IMG/VR virus record: IMGVR_UViG_3300007735_000759
Coordinates: 1-57,043 of that record
Length of the DNA: 57,043 nucleotides
From: a virus
Direction: 5' to 3' (one strand)
A program made the translations under genes and the position numbers. Below the pieces are notes generated by a model, which was not told the origin of the DNA, did not search any database, and saw only the letters and a program-made list of their open reading frames with translations. This document shows positions 2,474 through 55,754 of the stretch, in pieces. Position 1 is the stretch's first letter. Each line of letters starts with the position of its first letter.

Positions 2474-3076
2474 TTAACTCTTTTTATAAAGAAGATAACG
2501 GGACATTCCTGTTCTAAAGAAATCATAGAAATCATAGATATTTTCTTGAACAGTTAAAGTGTTTGGGATATTGTCTTTTAAATTATCTTGTAGACAGCAT
2601 AATGTTTCTACCAATGAATTATTACGAATCCCATCAACAATAACACATGATGCGTTTGAAAAGGTGTGCATAATATCCTCTACAGAGCAATCAAACAAAG
2701 ACAATTCGCCCCTTAAGTCATAAAAAGCCCTACAGAGATCCAGGCCTGGAACCGTAGCATTGCAGGGAACAGGAATATGAGGAAAATCATGTTCATGATG
2801 GCGTTGCAACTTCATTACAATACTATAAATTCCTACCCCTACTGCCGTCACAGCTGCTGTTGTGCCGACTACACCCATCCAAAATCTAGGTTTTCTATAA
2901 AAAGGAACAGCTATTGGTGCTAATGGCTCCGCTCTTTCCATCTCTAGCGCAACATGAGTTCTGGCTGGAGGTGTGAGCGGATGAGTTTCTTTTTCATCCA
3001 TCGCCAATACATTAACAGTTTTTAAAAGACTACATATAATCAATATGTATTTTAATTTTTTAATTGTTTTTGTCAT
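2474..3076 (-). CDS. secreted/membrane protein of the reversed cassette
   Basis: A 200-residue protein with an N-terminal signal peptide (basic start, then ILIICSLLKTVNVLAMD with likely cleavage after LA), a Pro/Glu-rich stretch, and a transmembrane segment at about residues 66-88 (FWMGVVGTTAAVTAVGVGIY) preceded by APLAPIAVPFYRKPR. The C-terminal domain has six cysteines and would be extracytoplasmic or cytoplasmic depending on cleavage. AAAGGAAAGAG lies just before the ATG. It is the last gene of a four-gene reversed unit. The layout (signal, APL-x-PI box, aromatic residue, transmembrane helix) resembles the product at 28929-29237. No known family recognised; superinfection exclusion or a host-envelope role is possible. 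Confidence 0.7.
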   Translation of the reverse strand: MTKTIKKLKYILIICSLLKTVNVLAMDEKETHPLTPPARTHVALEMERAEPLAPIAVPFYRKPRFWMGVVGTTAAVTAVGVGIYSIVMKLQRHHEHDFPHIPVPCNATVPGLDLCRAFYDLRGELSLFDCSVEDIMHTFSNASCVIVDGIRNNSLVETLCCLQDNLKDNIPNTLTVQENIYDFYDFFRTGMSRYLLYKKS

Positions 3077-3097
3077 TTTCTCTTTCCTTTAGGTTTT

Positions 3098-3586
3098 TTA
3101 ATAAAATGTAAATCTTAATAAAGAAGGAAGCTCTATCCCGGAGCCCTCTTTAAATTTAGCTAAACGCCTTTCAATTAACGGCGCTTCTAAATTTAATAAA
3201 TGCTGTGAATTTGTTTTTATTTCCGCCAAAGGAACCCCTTTGATAACTGAAAAATCTTCTAAAGAAGTAACGATAAATTCCTTGAAATATTTCAAATATT
3301 CCAAAATATATTTACTTTGATAAAGAGAGTTTCCAGTTGGTATAATAACTTCAAAGTATCCTAAATCTTTCATAAATTCATGAGTAGCTATTATCTTATG
3401 AGTAATTATACGCTCTGGCCTCTCTTCAGCTATCGGACTTAATCTCATCTTTGCTCCTGCTAAAACTGATATCTCACTTTTCCTTACCGAAGATGCCCTA
3501 CCGTTCGTCTGAGGTGGCTCCGTTGGATCTGTTGCATAAATACTAAGAGTACTCATTATTAAAAAAGTCACCGCTTTAATTTGCAT
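3098..3586 (-). CDS. secreted hypothetical protein of the reversed cassette
   Basis: A 162-residue protein starting with MQIKAVTFLIMSTLSIYATD, a typical signal peptide with cleavage after YA. The mature part has a Pro/Ser/Thr-rich linker then an alpha/beta-looking domain with no motif I recognise. The ATG at 3586 is chosen because it overlaps the stop of the preceding gene (ATGCAAATTAA) and follows GAGGGG; a longer reading from 3640 would put extra residues before the signal peptide. Its neighbours and promoter mark it as part of a host-facing, moron-like unit. Confidence 0.65.
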   Translation of the reverse strand: MQIKAVTFLIMSTLSIYATDPTEPPQTNGRASSVRKSEISVLAGAKMRLSPIAEERPERIITHKIIATHEFMKDLGYFEVIIPTGNSLYQSKYILEYLKYFKEFIVTSLEDFSVIKGVPLAEIKTNSQHLLNLEAPLIERRLAKFKEGSGIELPSLLRFTFY

Positions 3587-3860
3587 GATTAGTAAGCCCC
3601 TCAAGTTTTTTAACAAGATGTTTGAATCTATTTTCAGCATCTTCTTTCAATCTTGTCGAGATAAAGCCGCAATTAGGTAATTTTTCTGACATATCTGTGA
3701 TTTTTATAATATTCAAAATGTCTTCTTGGATTCCATCGAGACTTTCTTGAATTAATTTTAAATTATATAGGATTTTTTGATTAATTTCTGATTGCTCTAA
3801 TTTCTCTAAACATTCATCTATTTCTAATAACTTCTCTACATCATAAGCAAAATTTTTCAT
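3576..3860 (-). CDS. small helical hypothetical protein of the reversed cassette
   Basis: 94 residues, Glu/Leu/Ile-rich and predicted all-helical with heptad-like spacing, with no signal peptide. The start overlaps the previous stop (ATGA at 3857-3860) and the end overlaps the next start, so it is translationally coupled on both sides. No family recognised. As the only apparently cytoplasmic protein among three exported ones it could be a chaperone or partner for them, but the sequence does not show this. Confidence 0.65.
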   Translation of the reverse strand: MKNFAYDVEKLLEIDECLEKLEQSEINQKILYNLKLIQESLDGIQEDILNIIKITDMSEKLPNCGFISTRLKEDAENRFKHLVKKLEGLTNHAN

Positions 3861-4123
3861 TTCTTACGAACTCCTTGCGGTGATTTTTTAATTATAGAAA
3901 AAAGTGATTTTCCTTTTTCGCTTTCCTGTAAGATTCTATCTACAATTAGATTTTCATATTTATCGAGAAAACCATGAAAAGAATCATCTGGAGCAACTGA
4001 GATTGGACGCGATGGCGAGCCTGCCGGCGTTCTGGCCCCCTCCCTGGCTATGTCATAATCACCTGTACAGGCAAGAGAAGATATAACAGAAATCCCCCCT
4101 ATAAAAATTAACTTAATTAACAC
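3857..4123 (-). CDS. small secreted protein or lipoprotein, first gene of reversed cassette
   Basis: 88 residues from a GTG start. AAGGAGGA at 4131-4138 (minus strand) lies seven bases before this GTG, the strongest ribosome site seen in the window, and the upstream ATGs at 4147 and 4156 fall before or within the predicted transcription start and -10 box, so GTG at 4123 is preferred. The N-terminus LIKLIFIGGISVISSLAC is a signal peptide with a Cys that could be lipidated, although the lipobox is imperfect. The rest is polar. The SD is exactly complementary to the UCCUCCUU loop of the RNA candidate at 45831-45944. Confidence 0.7.
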   Translation of the reverse strand: MLIKLIFIGGISVISSLACTGDYDIAREGARTPAGSPSRPISVAPDDSFHGFLDKYENLIVDRILQESEKGKSLFSIIKKSPQGVRKK

Positions 4124-4155
4124 TAGTAACTCCTCCTTTTGTGTCATACAACCCA

Positions 4156-4184
4156 TTTATATAAGGTTGTTTAACACATGTAAA
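4156..4184 (-). promoter_or_regulatory. sigma70-type promoter of the reversed cassette
   Basis: On the minus strand TTTACA (4179-4184) is separated by 17 bases from TATAAA (4156-4161). Transcription would begin near 4149, about 26 bases before the GTG start at 4123. An ACAACC/GGTTGT inverted repeat (about 4149-4171) overlaps the -10 region and could be an operator. Confidence 0.65.
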
Positions 4185-4415: not shown

Positions 4416-4890
4416 TTAATACTCCTATTTAACCATTTCAGTTTCGCTCAACGGTATAAGCTGGCTTGATATGCATAGGGAAGGCATATAAATATAACTG
4501 ATGCAATTGCGCGACTCATTAGCTGTTTTCTACATATATGTTTCGGCTATAAACGCATATACAGACTGGCTTTATGGGCAAAAATGATAATTGAAAAAAA
4601 TGGAAAAATTAATTACTTTTCCAGACGGCGACAATCTGTCACCTACTGACAAACCCGAATTCGGTTACGGATTTGCGCAGATACTGTGTACCCTAAAAAT
4701 TAATCATTGATTTTTAATAAAATTTTAAATAAAATGAATTTATGCGTAAGTAAGAGCGCATTTACCAGGCATTTTGCCTTGGGTCTTATTCTTATTCAGT
4801 AAAAAGGTATGGAATCCTTCTTTACTTTCCCGTCCAAGCGACGTGGCACCTTTTCCACAAAAAATTAACTAATTTAAATGGAGTCCTCTT
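4416..4890. promoter_or_regulatory. 475-bp regulatory gap before the capsid operon
   Basis: No gene is supported here. It holds the 16-bp late motif at 4712-4727, dyads near 4630-4670 (GACAATCTGTC and AACCCGAATTCGGTT), a hairpin AGGCA-TTT-TGCCT near 4770 within what would be the capsid mRNA leader, and TTTTCCACA at 4851-4859, which fits the degenerate DnaA-box consensus TTWTNCACA. The gap separates the divergent AlpA gene and capsid genes, so it is probably the control region for both. Confidence 0.5.
4712..4727 (+). promoter_or_regulatory. 16-bp late motif, copy 1
   Basis: TTTTAATAAAATTTTA, identical to copies at 50089-50104 and 56295-56310, all on the + strand and all upstream of late gene blocks. 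It lies 163 bases before the first head gene. A phage- or host-recognised late promoter element is the simplest reading. Confidence 0.5.
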
Positions 4891-41837: not shown

Positions 41838-42242
41838 TCAGGAAAGCTCTAACCCAAAAGTAATATTAGTCCAATCCCTGACAAATCCCATCAAAGCAAA
41901 ATCACTTACTTTCATTGCCGCCTTAGGGCAAAGATTATAACATTGACAAAATTTTTCAAAATTAGGGCTATCTCTTTGAGGAATAGATTTCGTAAATAAA
42001 GATAAATCAATATCTAAATAATAACTTCTTGAAATATCATAAGGATAAAAACCATTACAGCCACGCGCAACAGCTTCTTTATACTGGTGACTATTCCAAA
42101 AATAACATAATTTATATATATCATAATCTGCTCTCGCCAATTCACCTATATTAAACTTCTTTTTTGTTCCACCAGTTCGGGAAGGATGTTGCCAAAACAT
42201 AAACAAGCGTTTTGGCTCTATGATATTTTTAATAAAAGTCAT
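41838..42242 (-). CDS. possible toxin-partner protein with RLFMFWQHP start
   Basis: 134 residues from ATG 42242, which overlaps the Panacea stop; an ATG at 42260 is less likely. The start PKRLFMFWQHPSRTGG, then FNIGELAR, Y.LCYFWNS, A.ARGCNGFYPYDIS.SYYLD..LSLF..SIPQRDSPNFEKF matches short proteins I associate with the consensus 'RLFLAWQ.P..r.w..vG.L......Y.F.Y..Ga..A...GF.p....' of unknown biochemical role. As the gene after two antitoxin-type Panacea genes it is the natural toxin or effector candidate of the locus. Confidence 0.5.
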   Translation of the reverse strand: MTFIKNIIEPKRLFMFWQHPSRTGGTKKKFNIGELARADYDIYKLCYFWNSHQYKEAVARGCNGFYPYDISRSYYLDIDLSLFTKSIPQRDSPNFEKFCQCYNLCPKAAMKVSDFALMGFVRDWTNITFGLELS

Positions 42243-42558
42243 TGTGATAACCAAATCCAATTAAATCATCGTATTTATCATTAATAAACAAAATTTCCGG
42301 TGTTATTAAATAAGGATCTAAATAGTAAAACACGTTTTGGATTGGTCGGCCGTGAAAACATTTTAACTTTAAATAAAGAGATTTTAACATAGGCCCACAT
42401 GCCCAAGCTTGAAAATCCTCGTCAATTAAAGGTCCATTTTTGTTATCTAGATAAAATAAATGGAGTAAATGCAATAATGCGTTCAGTTTATCGAGGTTAA
42501 TAGTCCAATTACTAAGACGACAGACTTCATATGCCGCTTCTTGCGCTGTAATAGTCAT
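42229..42558 (-). CDS. Panacea (DUF4065/SocA-like) protein, short subtype A
   Basis: 109 residues. MTITAQEAAYEVCRLSNWTINLDKLNALLHLLHLFY, PLIDEDFQAWACGPMLKSLY give the DUF4065/Panacea core (K..LL...H....G..L....F.AW..GP....LY). It is clearly paralogous to 54827-55294 but ends ~45 residues earlier, so the C-terminal helices are missing. AGAGGA precedes the ATG. It is flanked by the other Panacea gene upstream and the candidate effector downstream. Panacea domains are known as promiscuous antitoxins. Confidence 0.75.
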   Translation of the reverse strand: MTITAQEAAYEVCRLSNWTINLDKLNALLHLLHLFYLDNKNGPLIDEDFQAWACGPMLKSLYLKLKCFHGRPIQNVFYYLDPYLITPEILFINDKYDDLIGFGYHNDFY

Positions 42559-43110
42559 TTAATATCCTCTTTGCTCTTCTAATAATTTTTTGAAGTAATT
42601 TTTTATATCTTGATTGCTAATTTCTTTTCCTCTAACAATTCCTTCTTGTTTGGCGATTTTAATAGCCTTTCTCCAAGGATTGTCTGGGTCATCATAACAA
42701 ACCATTTGTGAAAGTTGAATGGCGTCAAACTTAGAATACTTTACCCACACCTCTTCTAATAAATTTCTCGCTTTTTTATCGGTAGGCGAAATATCACGAG
42801 GTTCAATTTTAAAACCAGGCGAGTTTTTTGATATAATGATTTCTCTCATCAAGTAATTCTTTGAGATGGGGTTACTGCCAAATCCTTTAAATTCATGATA
42901 AATGGAAGCACACACTGGCCCGTATTCCCATGCTTGAAATGGTTCGTTTATAAGAGGTAGCACTTCATCTTCGTTTTTATTAAATGCCATATGCCAGCCA
43001 TTTGCAAAATACACAAGTTTTTGCAAGCTCAAAGGCGTAAGTGCGGGGCCTTGTTCCCAAGATTTTCGTAAAAAGTAATTAGCAATAGCTCCTGGGCTAT
43101 AATTTTTCAT
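42559..43110 (-). CDS. Panacea (DUF4065/SocA-like) protein, subtype B
   Basis: 183 residues. YSPGAIANYFLRKS...LTPLSLQKLVYFANGWHMA, LINEPFQAWEYGPVCASIYHEFKGFGSNPI (~58-87) and a C-terminal LSQMVCYDDPDNPWRKA match SocA-type DUF4065 proteins along their full length, including the D/E-x-x-N-PW box. It is paralogous to 55260-55754. No ribosome site is obvious. In the SocAB pair SocA brings a toxin to ClpXP; other Panacea proteins neutralise diverse toxins. Likely an anti-toxin, anti-defence or addiction component. Confidence 0.85.
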   Translation of the reverse strand: MKNYSPGAIANYFLRKSWEQGPALTPLSLQKLVYFANGWHMAFNKNEDEVLPLINEPFQAWEYGPVCASIYHEFKGFGSNPISKNYLMREIIISKNSPGFKIEPRDISPTDKKARNLLEEVWVKYSKFDAIQLSQMVCYDDPDNPWRKAIKIAKQEGIVRGKEISNQDIKNYFKKLLEEQRGY

Positions 43111-43239: not shown

Positions 43240-44607
43240 CTACTCAAAATAATCCATATTTCTAAAAACGGTCAATTCTTTGTCGAAAAATACTGGCACC
43301 TCCCCGGTTCCGCCATACCTATTTTTTGCAATAATAATGAGGTTTTTGCCGCCATTTTCTGTATTTATACATATATCTTTCCCGGCTTCTTTTTTTCGAG
43401 CAGGGTAATAATCGTCCCGATGAACAAACATGACAACGTCAGCGTCTTGCTCAATGCTACCTGAATCTCGTAGGTCAGATAGTTGAGGGTATTTGCTATC
43501 ACGCTGCTCAACGGCGCGTGACAACTGGCAAAGAACCAAAATAGGCAAGTTCAAGTCCTTCGCTAAAGCCTTAAGGGCGCCAGAGACGAGCGTGGTTTTT
43601 TCATAAAGCGACGAGCTTTTGCGATCTTCATTGATTAATCCTAAATAATCGATTACAATAAAATCAAGATCGTATTCTTTTTTCATTAAAAGGCACCGTT
43701 CTTTTATTTGCGATATTGTTGCCGATCGCTGATCTATATACAATTTTGCGCGACTGGAATCGTACCTTTCCAAAAGATCAAGATCAAGCTCCGAACTGGT
43801 GCCCATATGCAACCGTGCGCTAGGAACGCATATTTCGGCCGCCAGCACCCTTTGTGCTAAATCCTGGCTAGACATCTCCAAACTCAAGAAAAGCGTTCTA
43901 GCCCCCTTTAATGAGGCATTAAACGCTATGTTAACTGCCAAGGTAGTCTTTCCCATTCCGGGACGACCTGCCAAAATGTAGAGATGGGAGTTGGAAAAAC
44001 CACCTCTCAAAAACCTATCAAGCCTTATGAAACCTGTCTTCACGCCTACGGATTCGTTGTTTAAAACTCGTTTTTTCCGTTCAATCGCATCAGCCAAAAT
44101 TTCTTTGTGCAATTCTTGCAATGTTTTGATTGCCGAAATTGGAGCAGCCGATAACTCAAGCAACTGACCGTGTTCTTCCACTCGCCGAGAGTATTCTAGA
44201 ATAATTTTTTCAGAAGAAAAACCGCCTTCTTTGGCAATTTCTAAATCGTCAAGAAATTGTTGTTCTCGCCAGAAAACATAGTTTTCAAGCAAATATTTTT
44301 GAATTTTTTTAAACTCAGCAATGTTTTCTTCTTGGTTTTTTTTGATAACCAAAACACTATCGGTCATGATCTCAACCAGAAAATCACGCTCTGATTGAGT
44401 TAGCAAAAACTTAAGATTTTCCAAGGTTACAGACTCACCCGAGTCTTTCAGTTTTCGAAAAATTGCTAAAAATTTGCGTAGCAAAAAAGAAGAAATATGA
44501 TATTCTTTCAAGAACAAATGAGATAACAAACTATCATCGTCAATTAAAAATGTAATAATTGATTCTTCTAATTCTTTTCTTAATTCAAAATTTAAATTTT
44601 TATTCAT
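43240..44607 (-). CDS. dnaB: replicative DNA helicase DnaB
   Basis: 455 residues, the usual length. The N-terminal helical domain is followed by a RecA-like motor: Walker A GRPGMGKTT (~214-222), LSLEMSSQDLAQR (H1a), Walker B DFIVIDYLGLI (~317-327), H3 LVLCQLSR, and SDLRDSGSIEQDADVVMFVHRDDYY (H4). It unwinds DNA at the fork as a hexamer. It overlaps the preceding initiator by eight bases, which likely loads it. The N-terminus diverges from host DnaB (LFLKEYHISSFLLR), consistent with phage origin. Confidence 0.92.
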   Translation of the reverse strand: MNKNLNFELRKELEESIITFLIDDDSLLSHLFLKEYHISSFLLRKFLAIFRKLKDSGESVTLENLKFLLTQSERDFLVEIMTDSVLVIKKNQEENIAEFKKIQKYLLENYVFWREQQFLDDLEIAKEGGFSSEKIILEYSRRVEEHGQLLELSAAPISAIKTLQELHKEILADAIERKKRVLNNESVGVKTGFIRLDRFLRGGFSNSHLYILAGRPGMGKTTLAVNIAFNASLKGARTLFLSLEMSSQDLAQRVLAAEICVPSARLHMGTSSELDLDLLERYDSSRAKLYIDQRSATISQIKERCLLMKKEYDLDFIVIDYLGLINEDRKSSSLYEKTTLVSGALKALAKDLNLPILVLCQLSRAVEQRDSKYPQLSDLRDSGSIEQDADVVMFVHRDDYYPARKKEAGKDICINTENGGKNLIIIAKNRYGGTGEVPVFFDKELTVFRNMDYFE

Positions 44608-45682
44608 AATTTGAAATTACCTCCCAAGGATTTTCGCCCACAAGAGGAAAACCGTTTGTCATGCAATGATCAATCCCCCCAGCACGGTCTACCAAGCGTC
44701 GATACCGAGTATTGGGGTTTTTTATAAGCTCTAAAAAGCGGGGATAATCCGTTAAATCCATGATGACCTCATCTGATTTTTTGCTCCCGGGTTGAGGGGA
44801 ATGATAGATTTTTGGGGCCTTTGACACCCAATGTGTCCATGCTCTCTCCCATCCAGCCTGTGATTTGGACGGTTTGTTTTTGGGTTTTGCTTCTTCTGCC
44901 CACCAACCCGTAAAGTTGTCAAAAATCACCCGAATCCATGTCGGGTCAATCTCATGCGTCACCGCAATCGATTTCATTCGCAGGTTTAGCCGCAGCTGAT
45001 CCGCTGTGAATTTCTCAACCACTTGCCGAGAAAAAGGCTGTTTGGCTGTTAGGTTGCCAACGGCAACGGTGGAAGGCTGTTTAATTTCCCTTTCAACTCG
45101 TGAACGTTTGGATAGGGTATTTTGTATTTTTGTTACCTCAGGGGAGTGTAAACGAACCCTCTTATTTTTGTCATTCGATTCGTCAGAATCGGAATGTGAA
45201 GATATAGATAAATTAATATCTGTAGTAGTCTCTGTAGTATATGGTCCCTTTCGGCCCATACAAACGGTCCCTTTCGGCCCATACAAACGGTCCCTTTCGG
45301 CCCGTTTTGTTGGACACTTTTTCTCCTCATTTTCACCAGAAATTCCCTGAAATTTAATTACAATATCTTGTAACTTAGTTTCGTTAATGATGTAGTGTGA
45401 TTTTGGAGGCAATCCTTTTTTAACAATTGAAATTAACCCTAACTCCCGTAATTTATTTTTAGCTGTTTTTATTTCCTTGGAAGTCAAGCCGGTCTCACTC
45501 TCTAAATCGGCATTGGTTTTATAAAATTCTTTTTCTTCCATTTTTTTGTACCAGTACATAATTTGAGAAAGTAAAATACCGCATGTTACAGAGCCTGTGA
45601 TTTTTGTGTAAATCGGGTAATAAGCTATGCAATTTTTGGCGGAATTAACGTCAATCATCTTCAAACTTTCATCGGTTTTCAT
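44600..45682 (-). CDS. replication initiator-like protein (winged helix, contains iterons)
   Basis: 360 residues. Residues ~8-110 form a winged-helix domain: AYYPIYTKITGSVTCGILLSQIMYWYKK...FYKTNADLESETGLTSKEIKTAKNKLRELGLI, as in phage replisome-organiser/RepA-N-like proteins. A Ser/Asp/Lys linker (~150-200) is followed by a C-terminal domain (W..VIFDNFTGWWAEE....WERAWTHWVSKAP), as in phage primosomal DnaT-like or helicase-loader partners. The linker is encoded by the 23-bp iterons at 45243-45303. Directly upstream of dnaB, as lambda O is of P. It likely binds the origin and loads DnaB. Confidence 0.7.
   Translation of the reverse strand: MKTDESLKMIDVNSAKNCIAYYPIYTKITGSVTCGILLSQIMYWYKKMEEKEFYKTNADLESETGLTSKEIKTAKNKLRELGLISIVKKGLPPKSHYIINETKLQDIVIKFQGISGENEEKKCPTKRAERDRLYGPKGTVCMGRKGPYTTETTTDINLSISSHSDSDESNDKNKRVRLHSPEVTKIQNTLSKRSRVEREIKQPSTVAVGNLTAKQPFSRQVVEKFTADQLRLNLRMKSIAVTHEIDPTWIRVIFDNFTGWWAEEAKPKNKPSKSQAGWERAWTHWVSKAPKIYHSPQPGSKKSDEVIMDLTDYPRFLELIKNPNTRYRRLVDRAGGIDHCMTNGFPLVGENPWEVISNYE
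45187..45303. repeat. three 23-bp iterons and AT-rich flank: candidate origin
   Basis: A 23-bp unit beginning GGTCCCTTTCGGCCC is tandemly repeated at 45243, 45266 and 45289 (the third copy is 15 bp). Since 23 is not a multiple of three, the same DNA is translated in three frames (RDRLY, KGTVCM, RKGPYT), so conservation must be at the DNA level. The 55 bases before it (45187-45242) are AT-rich with an AGATAT/ATATCT dyad, fit for unwinding. The arrangement mirrors lambda ori inside gene O. Confidence 0.65.
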
Positions 45683-45717: not shown

Positions 45718-45796
45718 TATAAATTAAGGCGGTGCTGTTTTAAATAAAAAGGAAAAATAAATTGTTGGGTGGATATCAACTTTTGTTGATTTATTA

Positions 45797-45825
45797 TTGA
45801 CAGACGCCATATATAGCAATATAGT
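45797..45825 (+). promoter_or_regulatory. sigma70-type promoter for the small RNA candidate
   Basis: TTGACA (45797-45802), a 17-base spacer and TATAGT (45820-45825): a near-consensus promoter. Transcription would begin at about 45831-45833. The dyad at 45775-45790 lies directly upstream and could be an activator or repressor site. Confidence 0.7.
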
Positions 45826-45830
45826 CTTAT

Positions 45831-45944
45831 GCAAAGACATAAATCCTCCTTCTAACTTGGTTTATGTTAAGGTATAAATTCTGATAAAATTTATACCTCG
45901 TTTTTAAAGTCCCTTAGTTTTCCACGTTCTAAGGGACTTTTTTT
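45831..45944 (+). ncRNA. candidate small RNA with anti-Shine-Dalgarno loop
   Basis: About 114 nt from the promoter start to a U-tract. Stem 1 ACATAAA/TTTATGT (45837-45867) exposes a 17-base loop beginning TCCTCCTT; stem 2 AGGTATAAATT/AATTTATACCT (45870-45898) is perfect; stem 3 AAAGTCCCTTAG/CTAAGGGACTTT (45906-45940) followed by TTTT is a textbook intrinsic terminator. No start codon with a ribosome site or protein frame is supported. A C-rich loop complementary to ribosome sites is typical of trans-acting small RNAs. The best matching SD seen is AAGGAGGA at 4131-4138 (minus). Confidence 0.6.
45906..45944 (+). terminator. strong intrinsic terminator
   Basis: A perfect 12-bp stem AAAGTCCCTTAG/CTAAGGGACTTT with an 11-base loop and seven consecutive T at the 3' side. 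The A-rich 5' side gives some bidirectional potential, but the U-tract favours the + strand. Confidence 0.85.
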
Positions 45945-46130
45945 GTAACAATATTTCCAATAGTTAGCATTTCTTTTTTAGCTATTCAAGAACAATAGTT
46001 AAAATTTTTTCTGAGTTGCAAAAAATGCATGGCTAAGATTTTTTTTATATTTGCTACTTGAAAATATTTTTTAATTATGTCATTTTAATTAAGGGTTAAA
46101 CTCGCTTTTTTGGTTTTTAGTGTTTTCTGA

Positions 46131-46184
46131 AAAAGTACTCCTCCTTGCACCTTTTGAAATGCTCTGGTACTTTTAAAAGGTGCA
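46131..46184 (+). promoter_or_regulatory. leader with two mutually exclusive hairpins
   Basis: AAAAGTAC (46131-46138) pairs with GTACTTTT (46167-46174); TGCACCTTTT (46146-46155) pairs with AAAAGGTGCA (46175-46184). The pairings interleave, and because the two right arms touch with no linker they cannot easily form together. The second hairpin hides AAAAGG, the likely ribosome site of the nuclease gene at 46193, while the first leaves it free. The region also carries TCCTCCTT (46139-46146). A translation or termination switch is possible. Confidence 0.45.
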
Positions 46185-46192
46185 TTTATTTT

Positions 46193-46609
46193 ATGAATCA
46201 ATCTCTACATTTTTATCTCCTCCACAATTCCGTATTTAAAGGCACTTTGAAATGCGAAGACTTGCTTGCGTATCAACTTGCTACTTATTTGCGCGAACAA
46301 TCCCTTGCAAACAAATTGCCTTTTGTCTGGTTCCACGTGGCCAATGAATTTGCTTCTAGAAATAAAACATTTGGGGCTAAATTATCGGCGCAAGGTCGTT
46401 TGACGGGTGTAGCTGATTATATTTTTTTGGGAAAGAATAAATGCTTTGCATTAGAGTTAAAATATGCAAAAGGTAAACAATCAGAATCTCAAAAATCTTT
46501 TGAAAACTGGTGTAAAAGCCTTGACGTTCCTTATTTTGTTGCGTATTCTTTAAATGAATCTATTAATTATATTAAGAATATGACAGATTATGAGTTACAG
46601 TGTAAATAA
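46193..46609 (+). CDS. VRR-NUC family nuclease
   Basis: 138 residues from ATG 46193; a TTG at 46145 lies inside the leader hairpin and is rejected. FVWFHVANEF (~46-55), GRLTGVADYIFL (~70-81), CFALELKYAKGKQSESQKSFENW (~86-108) carry the E, D and E-x-K of the VRR-NUC PD-(D/E)XK fold. Phage members act as Holliday-junction or flap nucleases, here possibly resolving replication or packaging intermediates. The stop overlaps the SSB start by 20 bases. Confidence 0.8.
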   Translation: MNQSLHFYLLHNSVFKGTLKCEDLLAYQLATYLREQSLANKLPFVWFHVANEFASRNKTFGAKLSAQGRLTGVADYIFLGKNKCFALELKYAKGKQSESQKSFENWCKSLDVPYFVAYSLNESINYIKNMTDYELQCK

Positions 46610-46982
46610 AGCTATTTTGATTGGGAATGTTGGCCAAGATCTTCCTCACGATTCTCAAAAAAAACTTTCCTTTACTTTAGCAACAAATGAATCTTGGAAA
46701 GATAAAAATTCCGGCGAATGGAAAAATAAAGTTGAATGGCATAAAGTTGCAATTTTCAATGAAAAATTAGCGGAAATGGCGCGTGCTAATCTCAAAAAAG
46801 GCTCTCGCGTTTATGTTGAAGGTCAAATTCGAAATAATGAATATGAAGATAAGTTTGGCAACAAGAAAACATCAGTAGAAATAGTTGTCTCTCCTTATCA
46901 AGGCACATTGATATTTTTAGATTCAAAGTCTGAATCACAAACACAACCTAAAAAACAAAATAACGACGATTGGTACGCGTAA
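46590..46982 (+). CDS. ssb: single-stranded DNA-binding protein
   Basis: 130 residues with an OB fold: VNKAILIGNVGQD, FTLATNESWKDKNSGEWKNKVEWHKVAIFNEKLAE, LKKGSRVYVEGQIR. These are near-universal SSB motifs. The C-terminal tail is short and ends NNDDWYA instead of DDDIPF, keeping the acidic-aromatic character for partner docking. It is co-translated with the nuclease and lies near the initiator and DnaB, so it likely coats the lagging strand and serves recombination. Confidence 0.92.
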   Translation: MSYSVNKAILIGNVGQDLPHDSQKKLSFTLATNESWKDKNSGEWKNKVEWHKVAIFNEKLAEMARANLKKGSRVYVEGQIRNNEYEDKFGNKKTSVEIVVSPYQGTLIFLDSKSESQTQPKKQNNDDWYA

Positions 46983-54826: not shown

Positions 54827-55294
54827 ATGACTATTTCTTCATTAGACGCCGCCAAACAAATGTGTGAATTGAGCAATTGGACTCTAACCCATCTCAAATT
54901 GCAGAAGCTTCTTTATTTAGCCCATATGGTGCATTTGGGTCGAACGGGGAAGCCTTTAATAAGTGAAAATTTTGAAGCTTGGACATATGGGCCAATTATT
55001 CCTTCTTTATATAAAAAATTAGGTTTTTTTGGAAATTCAGAAATTAAAAATATTTTTCATATGGTAAATTCACCTTCTTCTCATGATGAAATTATTAAAA
55101 GTATATATGATTTTTTTGGGAAAAAAGAATCGTGGGAGCTATCAAGATTAACCCGTTCTCTAAAGGGAGCGTGGGTGAAAAATTATAATTTAGACTGCCA
55201 AAGAATAATCCCAAATTCTGATATTTTAGAAGAGTACAAAAAAAGACAGATAAAGAAAGATGAACAAAATGTACACGCCTCAACATGTCACTAA
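54827..55294 (+). CDS. Panacea (DUF4065) protein, subtype A, full length
   Basis: 155 residues. CELSNWTLTHLKLQKLLYLAHMVHLGRTGKPLISENFEAWTYGPIIPSLYKKL (~12-64) is the core Panacea motif; the C-terminal half (ELSRLTRSLKGAWVKNYN) has the L..L.....AW box. It is paralogous to the shorter 42229-42558 gene. It lies directly after the portal gene in the late operon and overlaps the next Panacea gene by 35 bases, so both would be made late with virion proteins. Antitoxin-like; no adjacent toxin seen. Confidence 0.8.
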   Translation: MTISSLDAAKQMCELSNWTLTHLKLQKLLYLAHMVHLGRTGKPLISENFEAWTYGPIIPSLYKKLGFFGNSEIKNIFHMVNSPSSHDEIIKSIYDFFGKKESWELSRLTRSLKGAWVKNYNLDCQRIIPNSDILEEYKKRQIKKDEQNVHASTCH

Positions 55295-55754
55295 TTTCAT
55301 TCTTGAAAAAGCAGAAAGAGAAAGGCTGTCTATTACCCCGGTAAAGTTGTTTAAGCTAGTGTACTTGATATATGGATGGGTGTTAGCTGTTTTAGATAAG
55401 CGTTTGTTTGATGAACCGATCCAAGCATGGAAATTAGGCCCTGTTGTTCCTTCTTTATATCACGAATTTAAAAGATTCGGTGAGAATCCAATTACTGAAA
55501 AATCGGTATACATGGACGAAGAAAGCCAAGTTTCTTATCCCTTTTTAAACGTTGATGAATCAACTGCTATGGTGATGACTAAAGCCTGGGAGGTATATAG
55601 TCCTTTCGCCGCCTCTGCATTGGTTAATAAAACGCATGAGCCAGGAAATCCCTGGTTTAAATATTATACGAAAGAAGAAAAACACATTCTTATTCCTGAT
55701 GAAGAAATTAAGGAGTATTTTGTAAAAAAGATTAGTAGATATGTTGACTGTTAA
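55260..55754 (+). CDS. Panacea (DUF4065) protein, subtype B
   Basis: 164 residues. YTPQHVTNFILEKAER..LSITPVKLFKLVYLIYGWVLA, FDEPIQAWKLGPVVPSLYHEFKRFGENPI and KTHEPGNPWFKYY match 42559-43110 along the length. The start at 55260 overlaps the previous gene and gives an N-terminus like that of its paralogue; an ATG at 55269 is possible. With subtype A it repeats the two-member arrangement seen at 42-43 kb, here in the opposite gene order. Confidence 0.8.
   Translation: MNKMYTPQHVTNFILEKAERERLSITPVKLFKLVYLIYGWVLAVLDKRLFDEPIQAWKLGPVVPSLYHEFKRFGENPITEKSVYMDEESQVSYPFLNVDESTAMVMTKAWEVYSPFAASALVNKTHEPGNPWFKYYTKEEKHILIPDEEIKEYFVKKISRYVDC

Follow-up and report, generated by a model that had tools for sequence, protein, structure and literature searches.

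The small RNA predicted at 45831-45944 probably belongs to the replication-initiator operon as an antisense RNA encoded in cis, of the OOP/CopA/sar kind, and would lower the expression of a leader ORF and of the O-like gene on the opposite strand. Our analysis suggests that its most likely target is the replication gene of the phage itself and not an operon elsewhere in the genome. An earlier note on this DNA had described a phage RNA regulator acting in trans on a distant cassette; its observation was partly confirmed, and its interpretation is partly supported and is redirected here to a target in cis. The octamer complementary to Shine-Dalgarno sequences has a local explanation: it is antisense to a very strong ribosome-binding site (RBS) that lies in cis, immediately upstream of the O-like gene. 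The window, i.e. the whole stretch of DNA analysed, is a virus record of 57,043 bases with a G+C content of ~37%. The RNA region lies between the minus-strand O-like gene and a divergent plus-strand nuclease-SSB operon, and the features found there are as follows.

43240-44607, minus strand: DnaB-like helicase, downstream of O (phrog_19, E 2.7e-75)
44600-45682, minus strand: O-like replication initiator (phrog_9773, E 2e-29)
45243-45311, minus strand: three 23-bp iterons (direct repeats) inside O, likely origin
45724-45840, minus strand: leader ORF of 38 aa, MSLHKTILLYMASVNNKSTKVDIHPTIYFSFLFKTAPP, directly upstream of the O-like gene
45775-45790, no strand assigned: dyad ATCAACTTTTGTTGAT, ATCAAC-TTTT-GTTGAT, upstream of the -35 element
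45797-45825, plus strand: sigma-70-type promoter TTGACA-17-TATAGT (pO-like), 11/12 consensus matches
45831-45944, plus strand: predicted small antisense RNA, ~110-115 nt (~114), start placed by the spacing from the -10 element
45836-45868, plus strand: hairpin 1, with UCCUU of UCCUCCUU in the loop
45844-45851, plus strand: UCCUCCUU, exact complement of the minus-strand Shine-Dalgarno sequence AAGGAGGA
45844-45851, minus strand: Shine-Dalgarno sequence AAGGAGGA of the leader ORF, -11.7 kcal/mol
45870-45898, plus strand: hairpin 2, 11-bp perfect stem and 7-nt loop
45906-45946, plus strand: intrinsic terminator, 12-bp stem (perfect arms 45906-45917 and 45929-45940) and T-run
45958-46001, minus strand: two TAACTATTG elements at a distance of 35 bp, lying upstream of the O leader and without a further exact copy in the window
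46193-46982, plus strand: operon for a nuclease-like protein and SSB, divergent from O

Comparison with the lambda annotation, in which four iterons are recorded inside O, revealed the lambda O/ori layout in the window: an O-like initiator, a DnaB helicase and frame-shifting iterons within the O gene. The third iteron copy matches over its first 15 bp and has diverged over its last 8 bp. Since the iteron period cannot be divided by three, each copy is translated in a different frame, a sign that selection acts on the DNA as iterons; they likely form a lambda-style origin. Elsewhere in the window, four proteins of the SocA/Panacea kind (Pfam PF13274 or phrog_1281) occur in two pairs, at 42229-43110 on the minus strand and at 54827-55754 on the plus strand. 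Panacea domains are known as antitoxins.

Analysis of the plus strand revealed the near-consensus promoter of the earlier note exactly as it had been described, and this promoter is one of three in the window with 11 of 12 matches. Units consisting of a promoter (>=10/12) and a terminator within 160 nt were counted against a background of 60 dinucleotide shuffles. The whole window contains a single such unit, at this RNA, and shuffles give 0.05 per window. The 114-nt RNA folds with a minimum free energy of -33.4 kcal/mol against -14.9 +/- 2.9 kcal/mol for shuffles (z -6.3). The single unit and the fold together give good support, as a prediction from sequence, to a small RNA gene of the phage next to its replication region. 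The terminator is as strong as had been claimed; the three stem-loops counted in addition to it are two stem-loops and the terminator hairpin, three in all. The octamer had been placed in the first loop, where in fact UCCUU alone is found, the preceding CC being paired with GG and the first U being bulged. Searching Rfam gave no family above the gathering threshold; the best hit, PyrR, scored 25.4 bits (E 0.29) against a threshold of 54.

The strand of the RNA is indicated by two details. On the minus strand the terminator stem is followed by TTTAAAAA with no T-run, and the terminator therefore looks one-directional. At the base of hairpin 1, one G-U pair can form in the plus-strand RNA only, the minus strand having an A-C mismatch at that place. 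Both details fit a plus-strand RNA with a minus-strand target. Upstream of the promoter, the dyad proposed to control the RNA is real, but the rest of the window shows no enrichment of the pattern (4 matches vs 3.55 expected), so the dyad gives no evidence of an operator. A LexA box has been reported for lambda pO; none was seen by eye at the antisense promoter of this phage.

The absence of a coding frame, as first reported, is true of the plus strand. The minus strand reads AAGGAGGA-TTT-ATG (in the mRNA AAGGAGGA-UUU-AUG) followed by the 38-aa ORF, and its Shine-Dalgarno sequence lies exactly opposite UCCUCCUU. The RNA ends at its own terminator upstream of the leader RBS and is thus the perfect complement of the leader Shine-Dalgarno sequence, the start codon and the 5' leader upstream of it. 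When 68 start regions were scored against the 16S anti-Shine-Dalgarno sequence, the leader was found to have the strongest site (-11.7 kcal/mol), while the start of O, without a Shine-Dalgarno sequence of its own, was tied for the weakest (+1.7 kcal/mol). A strong-RBS leader ORF before a weak-RBS initiator, the combination looked for as a sign of a CopA/Inc-type system, is therefore present here (rank 1 of 68 vs tied last), and the RNA is complementary to the DNA upstream of O, where such systems have the leader of the initiator mRNA. Counting both strands, a window of this kind should contain AAGGAGG followed by ATG 0.7 times by chance, which corresponds to a probability of ~7e-4 that it is placed by chance opposite a 114-nt RNA. 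The codon usage of the leader ORF beats that of 97% of stop-free shuffles, and its chance of staying open is 0.08; translation of the 38-aa ORF has modest support. The ORF had no match in PHROGs.

The RNA might instead be the attenuated 5' leader of the nuclease-SSB operon, with most transcripts stopping at 45944 and read-through feeding the genes at 46193-46982. Its promoter has the strand and direction of that operon and is the strongest of the intergenic region, and a hairpin at 46147-46183 holds the Shine-Dalgarno region of the nuclease gene, which makes RNA control plausible there. We consider attenuation unlikely, however, since 250 nt separate the terminator from the gene, neither a plus-strand leader peptide with a Shine-Dalgarno sequence nor an alternative antiterminator helix was seen, and the strong RBS on the other strand is left unexplained.

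The end of this intergenic region deserves separate description. A 14-bp hairpin with one G-U pair (plus strand, 46146-46184, z -3.05) lies just upstream of the nuclease ATG at 46193, and the AAAAGG Shine-Dalgarno sequence of the nuclease gene sits in its 3' arm. An alternative pairing of AAAAGTAC with GTACTTTT could form a pseudoknot with this hairpin, which may serve in translational control of the nuclease-SSB operon. A second TCCTCCTT at 46139-46146 was considered as an RBS and rejected, as its minus-strand complement is not followed by a start codon.

A further possibility is a type I toxin-antitoxin pair independent of O, in which the 38-aa ORF would encode a toxic small protein and the RNA would be the antitoxin. 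Such pairs usually have an antisense RNA over the Shine-Dalgarno sequence and the start codon region of a small ORF, and the small ORF here has a strong Shine-Dalgarno sequence. Most type I toxins have a hydrophobic segment of ~20 residues, yet none was found on reading the 38-aa sequence by eye, so that the ORF does not look like a small hydrophobic single-span toxin. Together with the lack of a PHROGs match and a position directly before O that favours a role in replication, this makes the toxin-antitoxin reading improbable.

It could also be argued that the RNA itself matters little and that the promoter acts through convergent transcription, by interference or by origin activation, as proposed for lambda pO. 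In lambda, a mutation in pO alters replication and extra OOP RNA does not (PMC3985674), and the geometry here is comparable. Two structured hairpins, a dedicated strong terminator and exact coverage of an RBS would nevertheless be unneeded for interference alone, and we give little credence to convergent transcription as the whole explanation.

The trans-acting role proposed earlier fared worst. The site at 4131-4138 had been given as the best match of the octamer; a perfect match exists on the strand opposite the RNA itself, and AAGGAGGA also occurs at minus 46146 and minus 21887. Duplex energies were calculated for the RNA body against all start regions in the window, ignoring accessibility. 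The antisense leader duplex has -115 kcal/mol, a value that follows from complementarity, and the best others have -30.3 kcal/mol and then -26.4 kcal/mol, the last at the start of the 4.1-kb cassette, third in the window. The best non-cis target of shuffled RNA reaches -29.8 +/- 2.4 kcal/mol, so pairing at the cassette start is weaker than the best of shuffled RNA and the proposed cassette link is unsupported; distal pairing better than chance was not found. That the UCCUCCUU region pairs with the Shine-Dalgarno sequence of another mRNA, of phage or host, such as that at 4131-4138, is very improbable: part of the octamer does lie in a loop and AAGGAGGA at minus 4131-4138 does precede an in-frame GTG start (cassette 2474-4156), but complementarity there is limited to eight contiguous bases and the octamer is already accounted for by the local RBS. 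Where a candidate small RNA appears to carry an 'anti-SD loop', the opposite strand should be examined first.

Under the favoured reading, a cis-encoded antisense RNA of the initiator operon, leader and O would lie on one minus-strand mRNA, and O, having no Shine-Dalgarno sequence, would rely on translation of the leader or on the integrity of the mRNA. The UCCUU loop of hairpin 1 would seed pairing, after which the RNA would cover the leader RBS. Blocked translation, cleavage by RNase III or convergent transcription would then reduce the expression of O. More phage copies would yield more antisense RNA, and replication from the origin within the O gene would be restrained in copy number or in timing. 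While the anatomy and the complementarity are read directly from the DNA, we infer that the RNA is transcribed, that one transcript spans leader and O, that O depends on the leader and that the RNA represses.

The O mRNA is the weakest step of this mechanism. Two observations count against the antisense reading at this step: the gap of 41 nt between the leader stop and the O start is long for tight coupling, and no minus-strand sigma-70 promoter upstream of the leader was better than 8/12. The TAACTATTG pair might act as a control element for the transcript of the O leader on the minus strand. An AT-rich repeated element, TAAAATTTTAYTAAAAA, is present at minus 45717, after the leader and directly before O; it could provide O with a promoter of its own, in which case the leader would be outside the O mRNA. 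Copies of TAAAATTTTAYTAAAAA were observed on the minus strand at 4727, 45717, 50104 and 56310, and three of these sites lie in intergenic regions between divergent genes. With at most three mismatches, 10 matches were found vs 1.5 expected, and the recurring motif may serve the phage as a promoter or as a binding site.

Close relatives of this phage were not found by blastn against phages, by tblastn with O against phages and plasmids, or by protein and exact DNA pattern scans of IMG/VR and GTDB; these searches gave distant relatives only, sharing the O N-terminal domain, DnaB or TerL. Alignment of O homologues yielded 86 loci sharing the N-terminal domain, with 43 upstream regions after dereplication. 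An antisense promoter with a terminator upstream of O was found in three of the 43 (the window, L030 and L097) and in none of 860 shuffles, by consensus scans of a kind whose promoter step missed lambda's own pO. Inspection showed the same layout in L073, and a weaker form of it in the group L021, L023 and L085. In L030, a prophage of Nicoletella semolina, the predicted antisense RNA (~4657-4765) covers the RBS of a small ORF that precedes O and contains ACCUCCUU opposite AAGGAGGT of that ORF. It is opposite AAGGAGGTATGTTTG at the start of this 81-aa ORF directly before O, and so it also carries CCUCCUU.

As in the window, the units of L030 and of L097/L073 have an antisense promoter within the small gene before O and a terminator upstream of the start of that gene; they differ in being shorter (~45-80 nt) and in having simple terminator hairpins and other small genes, and they too are predictions from sequence. 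These results support recurrence of the antisense arrangement upstream of O across loci, which does not imply homology. It is possible that the L030, L097 and L073 units are unannotated OOP-like RNAs in Pasteurellaceae-type prophages. If the antisense reading of the window is true, control of phage replication by antisense RNAs that overlie the gene immediately preceding O may recur and be mostly missing from annotations. Against the antisense reading, the nearest relatives of the O protein (L040-L047, 43-52% identity) are without the antisense unit, and several of them carry a terminator just before O instead. The pre-O terminators of L042-L047 were rejected as evidence for an antisense RNA, being on the sense strand after a ParB-like gene. 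In L042-L049, which are AT-rich viral contigs, a conserved GC-rich hairpin with a T-run, GTGCAGAT...GTCTGCACCTTTTTTT, was observed ~20 nt before the O start, likewise after the ParB-like gene.

Among known systems, lambda OOP/pO is similar in having a small terminated antisense RNA just upstream of O, transcribed away from it, and iterons within O; the lambda OOP region folds as a hairpin and a terminator at this place. In the window, too, an antisense promoter next to O points away from it and transcription would run to an intrinsic terminator, and the O-type initiator has iterons in its gene. The target of OOP as an antisense RNA is cII, and replication is influenced by the activity of pO, probably via convergent transcription (PMC3985674, PMC5869508). 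In contrast to OOP, which pairs with the 3' part of cII and whose promoter pO adjoins the O start, the present RNA covers the 5' RBS of a 38-aa ORF and its promoter lies 143-115 bp from O. Complementarity to a cII 3' end was not found, there being no cII between the divergent operon and O, nor was sequence similarity found between this RNA and lambda OOP/pO. As its target is not cII, the RNA would be OOP/CopA-like in its working and not a strict OOP. Phage antisense RNAs directed against translation initiation are also exemplified by P22 sar and P1/P7 c4, with c4 acting around the ribosome-binding site (PMC12197685); unlike the present RNA, their target is the antirepressor gene ant and not a replication initiator.

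Plasmids provide the precedent for the leader. CopA acts over tap/repA of plasmid R1 (IncFII) (PMC5883639), and RNAI (Inc RNA) of the I-complex plasmids is a structured antisense RNA opposite the initiator mRNA leader (PMC10724649). The arrangement here is alike in placing a structured antisense RNA opposite a presumed initiator mRNA leader with a small leader ORF; it differs in that the protein and origin are of the phage lambda type, that the RNA covers the leader RBS itself and that coupling to O is presumed, across a gap of 41 nt. The fuller proposal, a plasmid-style copy-number control of phage O in which the antisense RNA occludes the RBS of a leader peptide to whose translation an SD-less O is coupled, with equivalent unannotated RNAs upstream of O in some Pasteurellaceae prophages, is offered tentatively. 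If it is true, two textbook systems, lambda OOP/pO and plasmid CopA/tap, would be joined in one phage replication module.
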